Positions 756 to 42,524 of a DNA stretch of 64,000 bases are shown here, piece by piece. Positions within the stretch are counted from its first letter, which is position 1, and every line of letters begins with the position of its first letter. The stretch covers positions 806,001-870,000 of the forward strand of contig CP034928.1 in the NCBI GenBank assembly GCA_004102645.1, written 5' to 3'. A model generated the notes under the pieces. The model was not told the origin of the DNA. It ran no database searches and saw only the letters and a program-made list of their open reading frames with translations. The translations under genes and the position numbers were made by a program. The stretch is from Candidatus Bipolaricaulis sibiricus. GTDB taxonomy: Bacteria > Bipolaricaulota > Bipolaricaulia > Bipolaricaulales > Bipolaricaulaceae.

Positions 756-776
756 ACAAACCAACGTAAACACACC

Positions 777-850
777 CTGAAAAGGGCAAACCCACGGGAA
801 CGTGGGGGCGCAAAGCAACGGACCCAGGACGGGTGGCCGGGCTGCCAGGT
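777..850 (+). promoter_or_regulatory. c-di-GMP-I (GEMM-I) riboswitch 1
   Basis: The aptamer has all GEMM-I hallmarks: the GGGCAAACC segment (784-792), a stem CCCACG/CGTGGG closed by a GGAA (GNRA) tetraloop, the conserved GCGCAAAGC (809-817), and a 3' GGGCTGCC block (839-846). The family binds cyclic di-GMP. The 3' part overlaps a strong intrinsic terminator (839-876), so ligand binding should block terminator formation and act as an ON switch for the regulator gene at 911. The switching direction is inferred from base pairing only. Confidence 0.92.
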
Positions 851-876
851 GGAGGTACGACCTGGAGCCCGTTTTT
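839..876 (+). terminator. Intrinsic terminator forming the expression platform of riboswitch 1
   Basis: GGGCT (839-843) and CCAGGT (845-850) pair with ACCTGG (860-865) and AGCCC (866-870), giving 11 bp with one bulged G, followed by GTTTTTG. The 5' arm is also the conserved 3' segment of the c-di-GMP aptamer, so aptamer and terminator should be mutually exclusive. Confidence 0.85.
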
Positions 877-1237: not shown

Positions 1238-1267
1238 GGTAGGGGGAATTCGATCGCAGTGTAGTCC

Positions 1268-1341
1268 GCCGAAAAGGTAAACCCGGAGCGATCCGGGGGC
1301 GCAAAGCCATGGACCTCCTGTAGGCCGCCAGGCTGCCGAAG
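1268..1341 (+). promoter_or_regulatory. c-di-GMP-I (GEMM-I) riboswitch 2
   Basis: The aptamer contains GGTAAACCC, a CCCGGA/TCCGGG stem capped by a GCGA tetraloop, GCGCAAAGCC (1300-1309) and the 3' GGCTGCCG block (1331-1338). It lies between the regulator gene and the giant surface protein. No terminator follows; a good Shine-Dalgarno AGGAGG (1353-1358) sits 5 nt before ATG 1364, so control is probably translational. The variable part of the aptamer holds CCTCCT (1314-1319), fully complementary to that Shine-Dalgarno. No clear promoter is visible just upstream, so it is probably cotranscribed with the regulator. Confidence 0.92.
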
Positions 1342-11004: not shown

Positions 11005-11187
11005 GGGGCCTCCCTGCGCCCGGTTGGGGCGTGGGGCCATTGTAGGGCTGAGCGCGCTCCGCGTCTGCCGGCTTGGGCCGCAGTGCCCGGGGCGCGTGTC
11101 GGCCACGGGTCCCGTTCCGCAGATGTGCGACGTGGCGGGGGAATGAGTGTTGCCGGCCGACCGCTGTTCGAGTGTGATGAGCGTCAC

Positions 11188-11215
11188 TTGACGGGAGAAG
11201 CTAGGTGTATATACT
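11188..11215 (+). promoter_or_regulatory. Promoter for the second c-di-GMP riboswitch unit
   Basis: TTGACG (11188-11193) and TATACT (11210-11215) are separated by 16 nt. Each matches the sigma-70 consensus at 5 of 6 positions. The predicted start near 11222 gives a 56-nt leader before riboswitch 3. The interval 11005-11187 shows no gene. Confidence 0.75.
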
Positions 11216-11277
11216 GGAAACACCGATACAGATAGCCGGGGAGGGGAGGTGGCACCGGGCAACTGACCGACGACCGT

Positions 11278-11351
11278 CCGAAAAGGGCAAACCCACGGCA
11301 ACGTGGGGACGCAAAGCCGACAGGTCCCTCTGGGATGGCTGGGTTGCCGAA
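11278..11351 (+). promoter_or_regulatory. c-di-GMP-I (GEMM-I) riboswitch 3
   Basis: Hallmarks are GGGCAAACCC, a CCCACG/CGTGGG stem with a GCAA tetraloop, GACGCAAAGCC (11309-11319) and the 3' GGGTTGCCG block (11341-11349). The start codon of the next gene (11354) lies only about 3 nt after the aptamer, with no separate Shine-Dalgarno between them. Ligand binding could therefore affect ribosome access directly; a GTG at 11372 preceded by AGGAAGG is an alternative start. The direction of control is not clear. Confidence 0.9.
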
Positions 11352-11353
11352 GC

Positions 11354-11827
11354 ATGGTCAGGAAGGCGGTTGTGCTCGCGATGGTGGGGATGGTGGCCGG
11401 GGGCGCCCTCGGTTGTGCGAAGTCAACCACGGCGGGTGCTCAGGCCACGGTCGTGATTCCGGTGCTCGCCCGTCTCTCCGTTCAGGGCGCGAAGGAGTCG
11501 GGTCGGGAGATCCCTGTAGCGGTGGAGTTCCGAGCTCCGACGCCCGACCCTTCGGGCTCCGTTGAGCTCCGGCAGGTGGTCAGCCTTGTCGTGCGCAGCA
11601 ACGCGCCGTGGGCACTCGTCGTGCGCCCCCACGATCTCTCCTCGCAGGGGATCGTGGAGGTGCGCACCGAGCGTGGGGAATACCGGCCGGTTCGGCCGGA
11701 AGGGCTGGTCCTCGCCGCGGGGATGCCCGGCGTGTACGAGATCGTGCTCGACTACCGGGTGCACGTGGGCGCGGCCGGGTGGAATGGTGAGCGTGCGCTC
11801 ACCCTGATCTACGCGATCGAGGGATAG
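11354..11827 (+). CDS. Small exported protein, possible lipoprotein, of the locus's beta-sandwich family
   Basis: 157 residues from ATG 11354. The N-terminus (MVRKAVVLAMVGMV then GGALGCAKS) is a signal peptide; ALGC is a weak lipobox, so membrane attachment through cysteine 21 is possible. The mature part begins with a strand-rich segment (ATVVIPVLARLSV) and ends YEIVLDYRVHV…ALTLIYAIEG. This layout parallels the next gene, which has AQFTVPTLIRLSL near its start and DYSLAFTYTLTAP at its end, so I treat them as distant paralogues. The fold resembles WxL or spore-coat-U type beta-sandwiches only in general pattern. Expression is expected to depend on c-di-GMP through riboswitch 3. Confidence 0.75.
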   Translation: MVRKAVVLAMVGMVAGGALGCAKSTTAGAQATVVIPVLARLSVQGAKESGREIPVAVEFRAPTPDPSGSVELRQVVSLVVRSNAPWALVVRPHDLSSQGIVEVRTERGEYRPVRPEGLVLAAGMPGVYEIVLDYRVHVGAAGWNGERALTLIYAIEG

Positions 11828-12002
11828 ACGTGCCCACGTTGACGGACGGGCGCGACGTGGGAAGGTGGATGCTGGCAGAGAACTGGCGCGTGAGCCCCGT
11901 ATCCTGTGGTCAAGGGGAGGTGGTCGTCGGACTGAGGACAACGCGAGCTCGGGAGACCGTTCTCGCGGCAACGACAGGTTTCGGGATGACACACGAGGTG
12001 AT

Positions 12003-12083
12003 CGAACCGGCAAACCCGGGGCGACCCGGGGACGCAAAGCCACAGATCTCCCTCCTGTGGGGAGATGGCTGGGCTGCCGAAAC
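12003..12083 (+). promoter_or_regulatory. c-di-GMP-I (GEMM-I) riboswitch 4
   Basis: Hallmarks are GGCAAACCC, a CCCGGG/CCCGGG stem capped by GCGA, GACGCAAAGCC (12031-12041), a variable stem ATCTCC/GGAGAT and the 3' GGGCTGCCG block (12071-12079). It is followed directly by an Shine-Dalgarno-sequestering helix (12085-12128), so control should be translational. I see no convincing separate promoter in 11828-12002; the gene is probably cotranscribed with the preceding one. Confidence 0.92.
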
Positions 12084-12084
12084 G

Positions 12085-12128
12085 CCTCCAAGGTCAAACG
12101 GAGTACCCAACACAACTACCCTTGGAGG
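12085..12128 (+). promoter_or_regulatory. Shine-Dalgarno-sequestering hairpin (expression platform of riboswitch 4)
   Basis: CCTCCAAGG (12085-12093) is perfectly complementary to CCTTGGAGG (12120-12128), which contains the GGAGG ribosome-binding site of the gene at 12136. The 26-nt loop has no other obvious structure. The 5' arm lies 2-6 nt after the aptamer, so aptamer folding may change helix formation. Confidence 0.85.
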
Positions 12129-12135
12129 AGAAGTG

Positions 12136-12648
12136 ATGATGAAGGTTCGTACACTTACGGTTGGCATGTTGGCTTTGGGGCTGCTTGTGGGCGTGGCGGG
12201 GACGGCGCAGGTCACGGCGGGTTCGACGGCGCAGTTCACGGTGCCAACGTTGATCCGGCTGTCGCTCTCGACGAGCACGATCAACTTCGGGACGCTGACT
12301 GAGGCGGACTACGACGCCGGGCAGAAGACCGTTTTCTCTGCTCAGGGCATCCAGATCTGGAGCAACAAGAGCTGGACCCTCAGCGTCGCCGCTAACACCG
12401 CAACGTGGACTGGCCCGTGGGCGAAGCCGTCCACCGACCTGCTGTTCCGCGCGACGACGTCGGATGGACGCGTGTCTTCGTACGCGAGCACGTTCACCGG
12501 GCTCACGACGGGGGCAACGCAGGTCGCCGCGGGCACGAGGGGCGGGAATGTCCAGCTCTCCATGGACTTCGAGGTCCTCGTGAGCTGGGAGAACGACCCG
12601 GCCGGCGACTACAGCTTGGCGTTCACGTACACGCTCACCGCCCCGTAA
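12136..12648 (+). CDS. Exported beta-sandwich protein (WxL/spore-coat-U-like), founding member of the local family
   Basis: 170 residues from ATG 12136 (ATG 12139 is also possible), 5-7 nt after GGAGGAG. A signal peptide (VRTLTVGMLALGLLVGVAGTAQ) precedes a single beta-rich domain. Features are TINFGTLTEADYDAG, SNKSWTLSVAAN, a GGNVQLSMDFEVLVSWE strand pair, and the terminal strand DYSLAFTYTLTAP. The gene at 12725 shares the same domain, including the DYDAG/HYDAG motif and the xFTYTLTxP ending. The pattern of a short exported subunit with a conserved C-terminal strand would suit a polymerising or surface-attached subunit, which is an inference. An intrinsic terminator follows the gene. Confidence 0.8.
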   Translation: MMKVRTLTVGMLALGLLVGVAGTAQVTAGSTAQFTVPTLIRLSLSTSTINFGTLTEADYDAGQKTVFSAQGIQIWSNKSWTLSVAANTATWTGPWAKPSTDLLFRATTSDGRVSSYASTFTGLTTGATQVAAGTRGGNVQLSMDFEVLVSWENDPAGDYSLAFTYTLTAP

Positions 12649-12664
12649 TGAGGGGTCGAACATG

Positions 12665-12709
12665 GGCAGCCCGGGTTCACCGAGAATCCGGGCTGCCATT
12701 CCTCTTTGG
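12665..12709 (+). terminator. Intrinsic terminator between the two paralogous exported-protein genes
   Basis: GGCAGCCCGG (12665-12674) pairs perfectly over 10 bp with CCGGGCTGCC (12688-12697), followed by ATTCCTCTTT. It probably ends most transcripts of the riboswitch-4 gene, making it more abundant than the genes downstream. Confidence 0.8.
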
Positions 12710-12724
12710 AGCGGACGAACGACC

Positions 12725-13645
12725 ATGCCCATGAACGGGTTGCCGCTCTTGCTGACGCTGCTTCTCCTAGGGGCCACGGGACTGGCCCAGAACACAGGCT
12801 GGCTGAGCCCGTCGGCCGACGAGGGGCAGTTCGGGGACGGCCCTGAGGCGTATGCTCCCGCCGGCGGGTTCGCGGTTGGACTGAACCAGGTCCACCGGTA
12901 CGGGGGCTTCGCAGTGGTCGTGCCCGGGGGGAGCGAAATCGTCGGGATCGAGGTCCTTGTCCGGGCGCGGCGGTCGCCAACGCGGTGGGGGGCTTTGGGT
13001 GTCGAGCTCTCCGGTGACGGAGGGATGAGCTGGACGACCACCGGCTACACGACGGGGAGCCTTCACCCCACGCAGTGGCGCGACCACACGCTGGGGAGGA
13101 GCACGGACCTCTGGGGCCAGGCCTGGACACGGGGGGAGCTTGGGGACGGGGTGTTCTGGGTTCGGGTTCATGCCCAGGGCTACGCTGAGCTTGACTGGGT
13201 GGCGGTGCGCGTGCACTACCGGGAAGGGGTCACTCAGGCGCTGGCGGTAACGCCGCAGCTCATCGATCTGGGAGCGATCACCCTCGCTCACTACGATGCG
13301 GGCTACCGAGAGGTATCACCGGCACAGCGGATCACGGTATCCAGCGGTGCTCCGTGGTCCCTGCACGTCGCCGCCGACGCGGCGACCTGGGCGTACACCG
13401 GGTCCGAGCTGCCTCCGCACAAGCCGTGCGCGCACCTTGAGTGGCGGGTCAGCGCGTTCGGCGCCGGCGTCGCGGGCCCTCAGACGAGCTACGTGGGGCT
13501 GTCCACGGGGCAGCAGAAGGTGGCCGGGGGAACCGCCGGCACCGATCTGTGGCTGGAGGTCTCCCTGCGGCTTCGGGTGGACTACGACACCACGGTTCCG
13601 GGCACCTACGAGCTTCGGTTCACGTACACGCTGACCACTCCGTAG
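12725..13645 (+). CDS. Larger paralogue of the exported beta-sandwich protein
   Basis: 306 residues from ATG 12725; ATG 12731 is an alternative, and a weak GGAG lies 13 nt upstream. Signal peptide: NGLPLLLTLLLLGATGLAQ. Residues about 20-165 form an N-terminal beta domain (VVPGGSEIVGIEVLVRARRS, then VFWVRVHAQGYAELDWVAVRVHY), resembling galactose-binding-like jelly rolls in pattern. Residues about 170-306 are a copy of the 12136 domain (LIDLGAITLAHYDAG, SSGAPWSLHVAADAATW, ending ELRFTYTLTTP). A two-domain form next to a one-domain form recalls adhesin or tip subunit versus major subunit pairs, but this is only an analogy. Confidence 0.78.
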   Translation: MPMNGLPLLLTLLLLGATGLAQNTGWLSPSADEGQFGDGPEAYAPAGGFAVGLNQVHRYGGFAVVVPGGSEIVGIEVLVRARRSPTRWGALGVELSGDGGMSWTTTGYTTGSLHPTQWRDHTLGRSTDLWGQAWTRGELGDGVFWVRVHAQGYAELDWVAVRVHYREGVTQALAVTPQLIDLGAITLAHYDAGYREVSPAQRITVSSGAPWSLHVAADAATWAYTGSELPPHKPCAHLEWRVSAFGAGVAGPQTSYVGLSTGQQKVAGGTAGTDLWLEVSLRLRVDYDTTVPGTYELRFTYTLTTP

Positions 13646-17792: not shown

Positions 17793-19049
17793 ATGGGGAC
17801 ACGGGGTCAGAGAGCATCGACTCGACTGCCGCGGACTACCCGCGGCCAGAGAACACTGGAGCGCATTCTGAGCAACGCCGAGGACGTGTTCCGCGAGCGA
17901 GGGTACGATGGGGCCTCTGTGTCGGCGATCTGTCGACGGGCGGGGATCGCCCAGGGCACGTTCTACCTCTACTTCGCGAACAAGGAAGAGCTGTATGTGC
18001 GGCTGGTGGAGGGCCTTCAGCACAAGCTCATCGTCCGGCTGAGGGGCGCCAGGGCAACGGGGCATCGTCCCACCGAGAGGCTCCTCCACGCGTACGCGAC
18101 TCTTCTCGACTTCATCTCGGAGAACGCCGGGACGTTTCAGGTGTTCCGCGAAGCCGAGTTCGTGAGCCCGGAAATCCCGATGCGGTTCTACGGGGCGATC
18201 TGCGACGAGCTCGTCGCAGTCATCCGTGAAGGGATCCGAACTGGCGACTTCCGCGATGCCGACCCCGAGGTTGTGGCGTACGGCGTTCTGGGAGTGGTCT
18301 TCTTTCTGGCGCTGCGGTACGTGATGTGGGGGGGAGGGGCTGTCCCCGATGCCGCGCGCCGCGTTGGCGCCGACCTGATTCGAAGGGGAATCGCTGGCCC
18401 GGGGCCGGTCGTCGACGACGGGCAGGGCCCTCCCACAGTCCATGCGGCGACGGGCGTTCCGGAGGCGGAGAGTGGTGAGGGCGCGGAGGCGACGCGGCGG
18501 GCGATTCTGCGGGCTGCGGAGCGGGCGTTCGGCCAAGCAGGGTTCCACCGGACCACGATCTCGACGATCACCTACCTCGCTGACGTCGGGCAGGGCACGT
18601 TCTACCTGCACTTTCCCAGCAAGGTCGCGGTGTTCAGTGAGCTTGTGCGGGAGATCAGCCGGCAGTTCCGGCGGCGACAGACGTTGGCGGCGAGGGCGTG
18701 CCGCGACCGGCGGATGGCGGAGGTCGCGGGGTTGCGGTCGTTCCTGCGATGGGTGCGAGATCACCCTGGGGCGTACCGGATCGTTCGCGAAGCGGAGTTC
18801 GTGGACGAGGGGGTTGGAAAGTGGTACTACACGCGGTTAGCCGAGGGATACGTGCGCGGGCTGGCTGGGGGCATGGATCGCGGGGAGATCCGCCGGTGTG
18901 ACCCAGAGGCCCTCAGCTATGCCCTCCTCGGGATCGCCCACTTCAGTGGCCAGCGGTGGGCGCTGTGGGAGGAGCCGGGCCGGCCGGCTGAAGAGGTGCT
19001 GCCCTCGCTGACCGAGTTCATCCTGCACGGCGTCGAACGGGCCGCCTGA
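17793..19049 (+). CDS. Tandem TetR-TetR transcriptional regulator
   Basis: 418 residues from ATG 17793, 9 nt after GGGGAGG. It contains two full TetR units in one chain. Each has an N-terminal helix-turn-helix: SAICRRAGIAQGTFYLYFANKEELY (about residues 43-67) and STITYLADVGQGTFYLHFPSKVAVF (about 255-280). Each is followed by its own helical ligand-binding domain of about 140 residues with a matching FREAEFV/VREAEFVDE segment. The two halves are clearly homologous, implying an internal duplication. TetR proteins normally dimerise, so this one may act as a pseudo-dimer. It probably controls the liv operon and CoA cluster downstream; the effector would be an acyl-CoA or the imported substrate, which is inference. 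Confidence 0.9.
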   Translation: MGTRGQRASTRLPRTTRGQRTLERILSNAEDVFRERGYDGASVSAICRRAGIAQGTFYLYFANKEELYVRLVEGLQHKLIVRLRGARATGHRPTERLLHAYATLLDFISENAGTFQVFREAEFVSPEIPMRFYGAICDELVAVIREGIRTGDFRDADPEVVAYGVLGVVFFLALRYVMWGGGAVPDAARRVGADLIRRGIAGPGPVVDDGQGPPTVHAATGVPEAESGEGAEATRRAILRAAERAFGQAGFHRTTISTITYLADVGQGTFYLHFPSKVAVFSELVREISRQFRRRQTLAARACRDRRMAEVAGLRSFLRWVRDHPGAYRIVREAEFVDEGVGKWYYTRLAEGYVRGLAGGMDRGEIRRCDPEALSYALLGIAHFSGQRWALWEEPGRPAEEVLPSLTEFILHGVERAA

Positions 19050-41753: not shown

Positions 41754-42524
41754 CTACGGTATCACGAGGCCCGTCTGTCGGGCAAGCTCATCCCGAAGGT
41801 CAGTGGAAACCGCTTGTCTCCACGCCCGCTGCAGCGCTTCCCGTTCGCTGGGCAGGAGGGACAGCACGTCTCCATCGGCGCATGTGGCGACGATCTCCCG
41901 GACCGTGGTTGCTCCATAGGTGTGCTCGACGAACCAGACCCAGGTCCAGCCCCAGTTGTTGGCGTGACGACGGCTCCCCTCGATCTCGCTCAGCGATGGA
42001 ACAATCCCTGCGCCGATGCCCGTCTGTGCCGCGTGAGCGAAAGCCGGCTCGTGGGCCCACTGCCGAGACAGGTAGACCGCCAGTCCCTCACTCCACCACA
42101 GGGGTACCGCCTCGATGTTGGGGGATAGGAACTCCTCACCGATGTGCACGAGCTCGTGGTGGAGCAGTCGTCGGAAGTGAGCTGGGACGAAGCGGAACGT
42201 GGATTCGGTTGCGTACGCCGACGGGGACAACACGACCATGTTCAGCTTCTGAGCCTGGGCGATTCGCGCCGGGTGCGATGGCCGCTCGATGTTCACCTTC
42301 AGGAGATCGTGCACCAGCCGGTCGAACTCGTCGCGGCGAGGGGCAAGGACCACACCGACCTGTGGGAATCCTTGCTCAAGAGCGAAGTAGGAGAGGACGC
42401 TCGGGAGTGCCTCGCGGATCGCCCCCAGAGCATCCTCTGCGTACGCGCGTTCTCCTGGAGCGTAGCGCACCTCCACCTGGGGGTCCCCGATCCGCGAGTA
42501 GCCAGCGAGCATGTCGGTGTCCAT
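41754..42524 (-). CDS. HExxH metallopeptidase-like protein
   Basis: 256 residues from ATG (complement of 42522-42524). The zinc-binding motif is LLHHELVHIGEE (about residues 127-138), followed by PLWWSEGLAVYLS, the layout of gluzincin peptidases of the MA clan, in which the glutamate of WxxEGLA is the third zinc ligand. There is no signal peptide, so it is probably cytoplasmic unless the start lies upstream. It is divergent from the oligoendopeptidase gene, 216 bp apart. Substrate unknown. Confidence 0.8.
   Translation of the reverse strand: MDTDMLAGYSRIGDPQVEVRYAPGERAYAEDALGAIREALPSVLSYFALEQGFPQVGVVLAPRRDEFDRLVHDLLKVNIERPSHPARIAQAQKLNMVVLSPSAYATESTFRFVPAHFRRLLHHELVHIGEEFLSPNIEAVPLWWSEGLAVYLSRQWAHEPAFAHAAQTGIGAGIVPSLSEIEGSRRHANNWGWTWVWFVEHTYGATTVREIVATCADGDVLSLLPSEREALQRAWRQAVSTDLRDELARQTGLVIP

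Follow-up and report, generated by a model that had tools for sequence, protein, structure and literature searches.

In adenine riboswitches of the add type, which turn translation ON, pairing of the P1 3' strand and of the Shine-Dalgarno sequence (SD) is mutually exclusive, and the ligand frees the SD. The closest described aptamers to those considered here are the class-I c-di-GMP aptamers (c-di-GMP-I or GEMM-I; Rfam RF01051). In the Vc2 representative the ligand is contacted by G20, A47 and C92, and a 2016 source calls the mechanism of Vc1 and Vc2 unclear or unknown (PMC4744006). The leader of Candidatus Bipolaricaulis sibiricus that we describe below shares with RF01051 the aptamer architecture and the contact residues G20 and A47, and differs in that its expression platform can be read, namely as capture of the SD by the 3' strand of P1. 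Later work on Vc2 reportedly found the ribosome site to be masked. From c-di-GMP-I-GGC (RF03167), the family to which cmscan assigns it, the leader differs by an A for the consensus G at position 47. With the add adenine type it shares the exclusion between P1 3' strand and SD, on a different aptamer, but its P1 5' strand is a mimic of the SD, whereby the anti-SD strand has two near-identical partners.

We consider it quite probable that this leader, copy 4 of its locus, is a c-di-GMP-I riboswitch acting as a translational ON switch for the gene starting at 12136. A strand-exchange switch is a known kind of device; it is its wiring and its neighbours that are worth testing. The analysed stretch, hereafter the window, comprises 64,000 nucleotides (806001-870000) of a single-contig genome of 1.70 Mb. 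It holds four class-I c-di-GMP aptamers detected by cmscan (Table 1), and a fifth, copy 0, lies just beyond its edge (G000:C1:805570-805644); all five are on the same strand and lie within 12.5 kb. Searches of the whole genome with RF03167 and RF01051 returned no c-di-GMP-I aptamer beyond these five. A second, degraded aptamer within 11050-12160 was ruled out, as no further c-di-GMP match appeared there up to an E of 5.

Table 1. Features of the locus in window coordinates, and the nested copies of related genomes
Feature	Position	Strand	Remarks
c-di-GMP-I aptamer, copy 1	776..850	+	RF03167 61.1 bits
Terminator-like hairpin, bulged, GGGCTGCCAGGT/ACCTGGAGCCC plus T-run	839..876	+	formed from copy 1 3' strands; read and folded
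c-di-GMP-I aptamer, copy 2	1267..1341	+	RF03167 64.1 bits
Copy 2 aptamer strand GCCATGGACCTCC	1306..1318	+	can pair with SD and AUG of next gene (1354-1368); MFE
c-di-GMP-I aptamer, copy 3	11277..11352	+	RF03167 63.6 bits
Copy 3 gene, signal-peptide-like start MVRKAVVLAMVG	11354..11827	+	start picked by heuristic
P1-extension 5' strand GAGGTG	11995..12000	+	SD mimic; pairs with 12083-12088; paired in 22/22 leaders
c-di-GMP-I aptamer, copy 4	12000..12082	+	RF03167 61.6 bits, RF01051 67.0 bits; G at position 20, A at position 47
P1-extension 3' strand CGCCTC	12083..12088	+	last four bases are the first four of the anti-SD
Anti-SD strand CCTCCAAGG	12085..12093	+	exact complement of SD strand; conserved pairing
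SD strand CCTTGGAGG	12120..12128	+	exact complement of anti-SD; SD core GGAGG at 12124-12128
Controlled gene, 170 aa	12136..12648	+	signal-peptide-like start; predicted fold nearest TLP-1a/b fibre proteins
Nested copies L009, L033, L091, L092, L111, L116, L119, L122, L127, L130, L143, L148, L180, L182, L195, L199, L205

A conserved helix over the ribosome-binding site of copy 4

A sequence-only reading of this DNA had described a perfect 9-bp helix at 12085-12128, placed behind riboswitch 4 and hiding the ribosome-binding site of the 12136 gene, and all three elements of this description hold as far as sequence, comparison and predicted folding go. The two strands are exact in sequence and position and are full complements of each other, with 26 bases between them; the aptamer ends upstream of the helix; and seven bases (12129-12135) separate the SD strand from ATGATG, which begins at 12136. 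In computationally folded leaders cut just past the SD, the SD core is unpaired at only 0-0.3% in 16 of 22, and at 20% in the other six, which have a bulged A. With the SD strand fixed and the 80 nt upstream shuffled, the exact 9-mer arose in 15 of 20,000 shuffles. The window has 81 sites with an SD and a start, counted on both strands and with spurious ORFs, and at two of them the SD is covered by a Watson-Crick helix of 9 bp formed within 80 nt: the copy 4 helix and one at 42177.

Conservation is a stronger test than these chance figures. Starting from 40 genomes, 24 had a relative of the controlled protein and 21 of these gave 22 leaders; the set leaves out G028 (by eye lacking an aptamer in the 215 bases before the gene), G039 (aptamer of another layout), G031 (weak partial match) and second, more distant matches within the same genomes. 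These leaders make up alignment A1 (22 leaders, 21 distinct), alongside a smaller alignment A2 (16 leaders, 15 distinct). In A2, a 10-bp version of the helix pairs in 97.3% of 148 cells, against 42.6-52.4% when slid, and two pairs are changed on both sides, a count equalled by 9 of 500 shuffles. In A1 the paired share of 231 cells is 89.2%, sliding brings it to 43.7-60.4%, and the covariation score is 0.167, below the 0.202 obtained at slide -1. The A1 score is not the highest because six leaders of one genus have an anti-SD one base shorter; once a bulged A is allowed, 14 of 14 positions pair in these, and it is their retention in the plain register that pulls the A1 pairing down to 89.2%. 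The plain 9-bp form occurs in this genome, G013 and G007, and elsewhere among the leaders its base is lengthened by GGTG/C(A,G)CC pairs. Thus the SD of copy 4 is sequestered by a helix that is confirmed as real and as conserved, with compensatory changes, in Candidatus Bipolaricaulota.

Proposed strand exchange with the aptamer and the probable sign of the switch

The sequence-only reading did not include the competing strand GAGGTG, and hence offered neither a route for the ligand nor a likely sign (ON). This SD-like strand lies directly 5' of the aptamer and, with CGCCTC, extends helix P1 outward. As the bases CCTC (12085-12088) are common to both helices, the P1 extension and the SD hairpin are mutually exclusive, and the same sharing of anti-SD bases with the aptamer P1 recurs in all 22 leaders. 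Every one of these leaders, drawn from 21 genomes, has the extension fully paired; taken with two pairs of the P1 core, it pairs in 100% of 168 cells over 21 distinct rows, against 38-63% when slid. In 8 of the 21 distinct rows both bases of one pair of the extension are changed, giving G-C in place of A-U (shuffled mean 2.9, none of 500 shuffles as high), with the caveat that this double-sided change concerns a single pair, that 455 of 500 shuffles also have one such pair, and that four of the six extension pairs are invariant and so uninformative on covariation. On the protein tree the change needs two steps, and a single origin is not excluded. In G025 and G026 all three strands are altered together (GGGGTG, CACCCCCAAG and CTTGGGGGTG). 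The distance from the extension to the conserved CG/CG of P1 is two bases on the 5' side (one in G014) and three on the 3' side, and the 5' edge pattern G(A/G)GGTG is present in all 22 leaders, none having been lost by it. The same three-strand design is seen in L189 (G036), before a different gene start sequence: there P1 is GGAGG/CCTCC, and CCTCCT also pairs with the SD AGGAGG.

We propose that as the leader is synthesized the aptamer would fold and GAGGTG would pair with CGCCTC as the outer part of P1. With ligand bound, P1 would be kept, the anti-SD strand occupied and the SD left free; with no ligand, the newly made SD strand would capture the anti-SD strand, the outer P1 would be lost, and the landing site of the ribosome would be shut. 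The ON sign derives from this arrangement, in that a ligand holding P1 would leave the SD free. We infer c-di-GMP as the ligand, a shift of the balance on binding, the ON sign and a role in making surface fibres.

In computed transcripts beginning at 11985, the probability of the P1 extension is 0.93-0.99 for 3' ends from 12088 to 12124 and 0.00 at 12128, which is the point where the SD strand is complete. Over the 22 leaders the extension exceeds 0.5 before the SD strand in 20 (G011 at 0.08 and G020 at 0.46 being the two in which it is not favoured) and falls below 0.1 after it in all 22. The ensemble gap between ON and OFF forms is 2.5 kcal/mol for 11985-12150 and 1.7 kcal/mol for 11913-12150; when the SD is forced open, ON is worse than OFF by 4.7-15.1 kcal/mol over the 22 leaders (the G015 value being invalid through an enforced U-U pair). 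Given so large a cost, ligand binding might not suffice at equilibrium, and the outcome would then depend on kinetics. Without ligand the SD core is unpaired at 0.2-74% over 10 choices of transcript ends, the highest value being that of 11913-12135, where the P1 extension stands at 0.75; the predicted folding balance is dependent on the transcript ends. A further point against the ON switch is that a short P1 core might allow ligand binding while the SD stays closed.

The least improbable alternative is that the SD hairpin acts as a constant damper, or as an RNA thermometer, lowering translation independently of the aptamer, with the SD-like P1 strand unused. The segment 12083-12150 alone folds into the SD hairpin and a small hairpin with an MFE of -14.6 kcal/mol, and all but one of the 22 leaders have the OFF form as their MFE, as such a device would have it. 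However, a damper would not need a P1 extension that occupies these anti-SD bases, pairs in every one of the 22 leaders and co-changes with them, and we regard this explanation as improbable. A second alternative, which we hold to be somewhat less probable still, is that the ligand turns the 12136 gene OFF, the bound aptamer leaving the anti-SD available to sequester the SD, which in the absence of ligand would be opened by a different pairing. The MFE of 11985-12170 has the aptamer core and the SD hairpin side by side, so that opening of the SD need not follow from binding, and c-di-GMP riboswitches of both signs are reported (PMC4744006). Yet the sole conserved competitor for the anti-SD that emerged is the P1 strand, whose pairing the ligand should promote rather than oppose. 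The other possible partner, a 5' element of the form GGAGGTG or GGGGGTG, is inconsistent in following the anti-SD.

This element, located at 11916-11922 in the window (GGAGGTG) and also in the leaders of L041-L060 and L064, is shared by all 22 related leaders and precedes the matched gene start by 171-220 bases; it reads GGGGGTG in G018, G019 and G020. Its pairing with the anti-SD was not adopted, as the sequence remains GGAGGTG, despite an anti-SD of CACCCC, in G025, in G026 and in half of the six leaders of genus g6; the remaining three of that genus are the GGGGGTG cases. A conserved leader peptide following the element was set aside since the frames differ, by eye, between relatives. Translational coupling to the copy 3 gene also appears unlikely, as that gene ends 308 bases upstream, at 11827.

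The probable ligand and the controlled gene

Returning to the ON switch, we predict its ligand from the aptamer itself. Copy 4 scores 67.0 bits with RF01051 (curated cut-off 35), and the other four copies of the genome 56.5-69.4; with RF03167 the four window copies score 61.1-64.1 bits (curated cut-off 59). At position 47 the RF03167 consensus has a G (GACGC[G]AA), to which we take the "GGC" of the family name to refer; all four window copies, and all 150 copies examined from the phylum, have an A there. Position 20 is G in the 147 pattern-matched copies and the other three read GGCAAAA, whereas aptamers of the cGAMP type have an A there; both positions were placed by counting along the Vc2 sequence. 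A C stands at the expected place of C92 (GCTGCCGAA), with the numbering across P3 being approximate. GGDEF domains number three in this genome, and 97 of the 100 genomes examined from the phylum encode them. By these residues the binding pocket looks like that of an ordinary c-di-GMP-I aptamer, and c-di-GMP is the likely ligand. Another ligand might be suggested by RF03167, which wins the clan comparison at every copy in the window and has more bits than RF01051 at four of the five copies in the genome. That the aptamer senses such a ligand is highly improbable in view of the A at position 47, the G at position 20 and the higher score of RF01051 at copy 4 (67.0 against 61.6 bits). In the phylum Bipolaricaulota, the Rfam label c-di-GMP-I-GGC is therefore an unsafe guide to the ligand.

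The protein encoded by the controlled gene has no family match in Pfam or NCBIfam. Among the relatives of this protein, 16 of 17 named records are titled Candidatus Bipolaricaulota, Bipolaricaulis or Acetothermia and one Thermotoga sp. An AlphaFold2 model built from 23 sequences (mean pLDDT 83.8) is closest to the cryo-EM structures of TLP-1a (9ikj; Z 11.1, rmsd 4.6 over 144 aligned residues) and TLP-1b (9ikk; Z 10.9), for which Foldseek gave E values of 6.8e-06 and 2.0e-05; the first structure of another family has a Z of 8.3. Chaperone-usher pilins, with a Z of about 8, were not used as a fold match, such values being common. The predicted fold is like that of the TLP-1a and TLP-1b fibres, with an identity of 18-20%. 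We take TLP to stand for TasA-like, and no literature naming "TLP-1a" or "9ikj" was found. TasA of B. subtilis forms polymers through donor-strand exchange, and it has structural relatives among archaeal fibres (PMC9674648). On the strength of the model, the 12136 product is a probable TasA-like subunit of a surface fibre, and the next gene (12662-13645) codes for a related domain. A fibre subunit opened by c-di-GMP, if true, would suit the biology of biofilms.

Predicted outputs of the other copies and nested aptamers

Other genes near the aptamers are also of the surface type, and include those for a 1670-residue protein with DUF11/DUF7507 repeats, for two Big_9-domain proteins and for one with SdrD_B and PKD domains. 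Elsewhere in the window, 17793-19049 codes for a protein of 418 residues whose single chain carries two DNA-binding domains of the TetR type, TetR-family models matching it twice. Sigma-70-like promoter matches (10/12) lie upstream of copy 3 (11188-11215) and copy 1 (728-755), and a promoter scan of 11100-12200 gave no such match for copy 4.

The view that several platform types coexist at this locus is supported by our analysis, in which the copies appear to use a terminator-like hairpin, SD/AUG capture, a start codon at P1 and the SD helix. At copy 1 the hairpin is followed by TTTTT and would exclude the aptamer, which points to ligand-dependent read-through; a pattern scan for terminators did not list it, and the leaders L140 and L176 have a perfect 11-bp version. 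The gene behind it (833-1237) codes for a ribbon-helix-helix domain and two RLGEILV repeats, the first deviating at several places, that resemble the c-di-GMP-binding motif of MshEN (PMC5013675); perhaps it is a c-di-GMP-reading regulator itself under a c-di-GMP riboswitch. At copy 2, the capture of SD and AUG is the MFE here and in the leaders of G025 and G026, and the gene behind it is that of the 1670-residue, adhesin-like protein. At copy 3 the ATG (11354-11356) is one base past the aptamer and touches a possible P1 extension, CTGACC (11263-11268)/GGTCAG (11356-11361); in the counterpart in G018 the extension CCTGACCATT/AATGGTCAGG includes the whole start codon, and that in G021 has a P1 extension with GGCC.

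Start codons in or right after the P1 3' strand, often lacking an SD, are seen at 11277-11361, at G000:C1:805570-805660 and in L022, L023, L024, L128 and L178. Such abutting starts are common: of the copies with a signal-like start, 52 of 102 have it no more than 16 bases from the end of the aptamer, by a heuristic that finds such a start in only 102 of 150 copies and some of whose picks are doubtful. A first automatic classing of platforms over the 150 copies favoured SD-bearing starts, mis-called those located in P1 and was replaced. We predict OFF for the start codons abutting P1, and the output signs of all the other copies are likewise ones that we infer. It is a tentative proposal, which we hold to be possible rather than probable, that the five aptamers read one signal and pass it on by four or more kinds of output device, opposite in sign: ON at copies 4 (fibre), 1 (regulator, by antitermination) and 2 (giant adhesin-like protein), and OFF at copies 3 (lipoprotein-like) and 0.

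Nearly universal in the phylum Bipolaricaulota, c-di-GMP-I aptamers were recovered with RF03167 in 94 of 100 genomes at an E of 0.001 or better and in 86 over the cut-off; no literature linking "Bipolaricaul" with riboswitch was found in a search under the current name of the phylum. Among copies with a distant start, 10 of 38 have a helix score of at least 8 between the post-aptamer bases and the SD, against 82 of 1,520 shuffles (5.4%) and 190 of 1,469 swaps between copies (12.9%). Eight of the ten are nested, and seven of those share one helix; hence the generality of the exact copy 4 design is modest. Nesting, whereby a whole c-di-GMP-I aptamer takes the place of the P3 loop of an outer one, is seen in 17 of 150 copies (16 genomes; Table 1). 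A scan gave a putative outer P1 of 6-8 bp in 16 of the 17, GCACCTA/TAGGTGC in some of them and GCATCTA/TAGATGC in others. The word "nested" is absent from a 2022 review of tandem riboswitches (PMC9481103), and among the literature matches listed neither "nested riboswitch" nor "nested aptamer" occurred, only "aptamer within". The mixed outputs at one locus and the nested aptamers of relatives are the more unusual leads.

Copy 4 offers a complete and testable wiring for a translation-controlling c-di-GMP-I riboswitch in a phylum known mainly from metagenomes, and this wiring ties c-di-GMP to a probable biofilm fibre. Since the copies around it apparently work through different outputs, ON and OFF wirings of one aptamer can be tested next to each other in this locus. 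If its signs are indeed mixed, it would represent an RNA-only programme for building the cell surface, which is perhaps the rule in the phylum.
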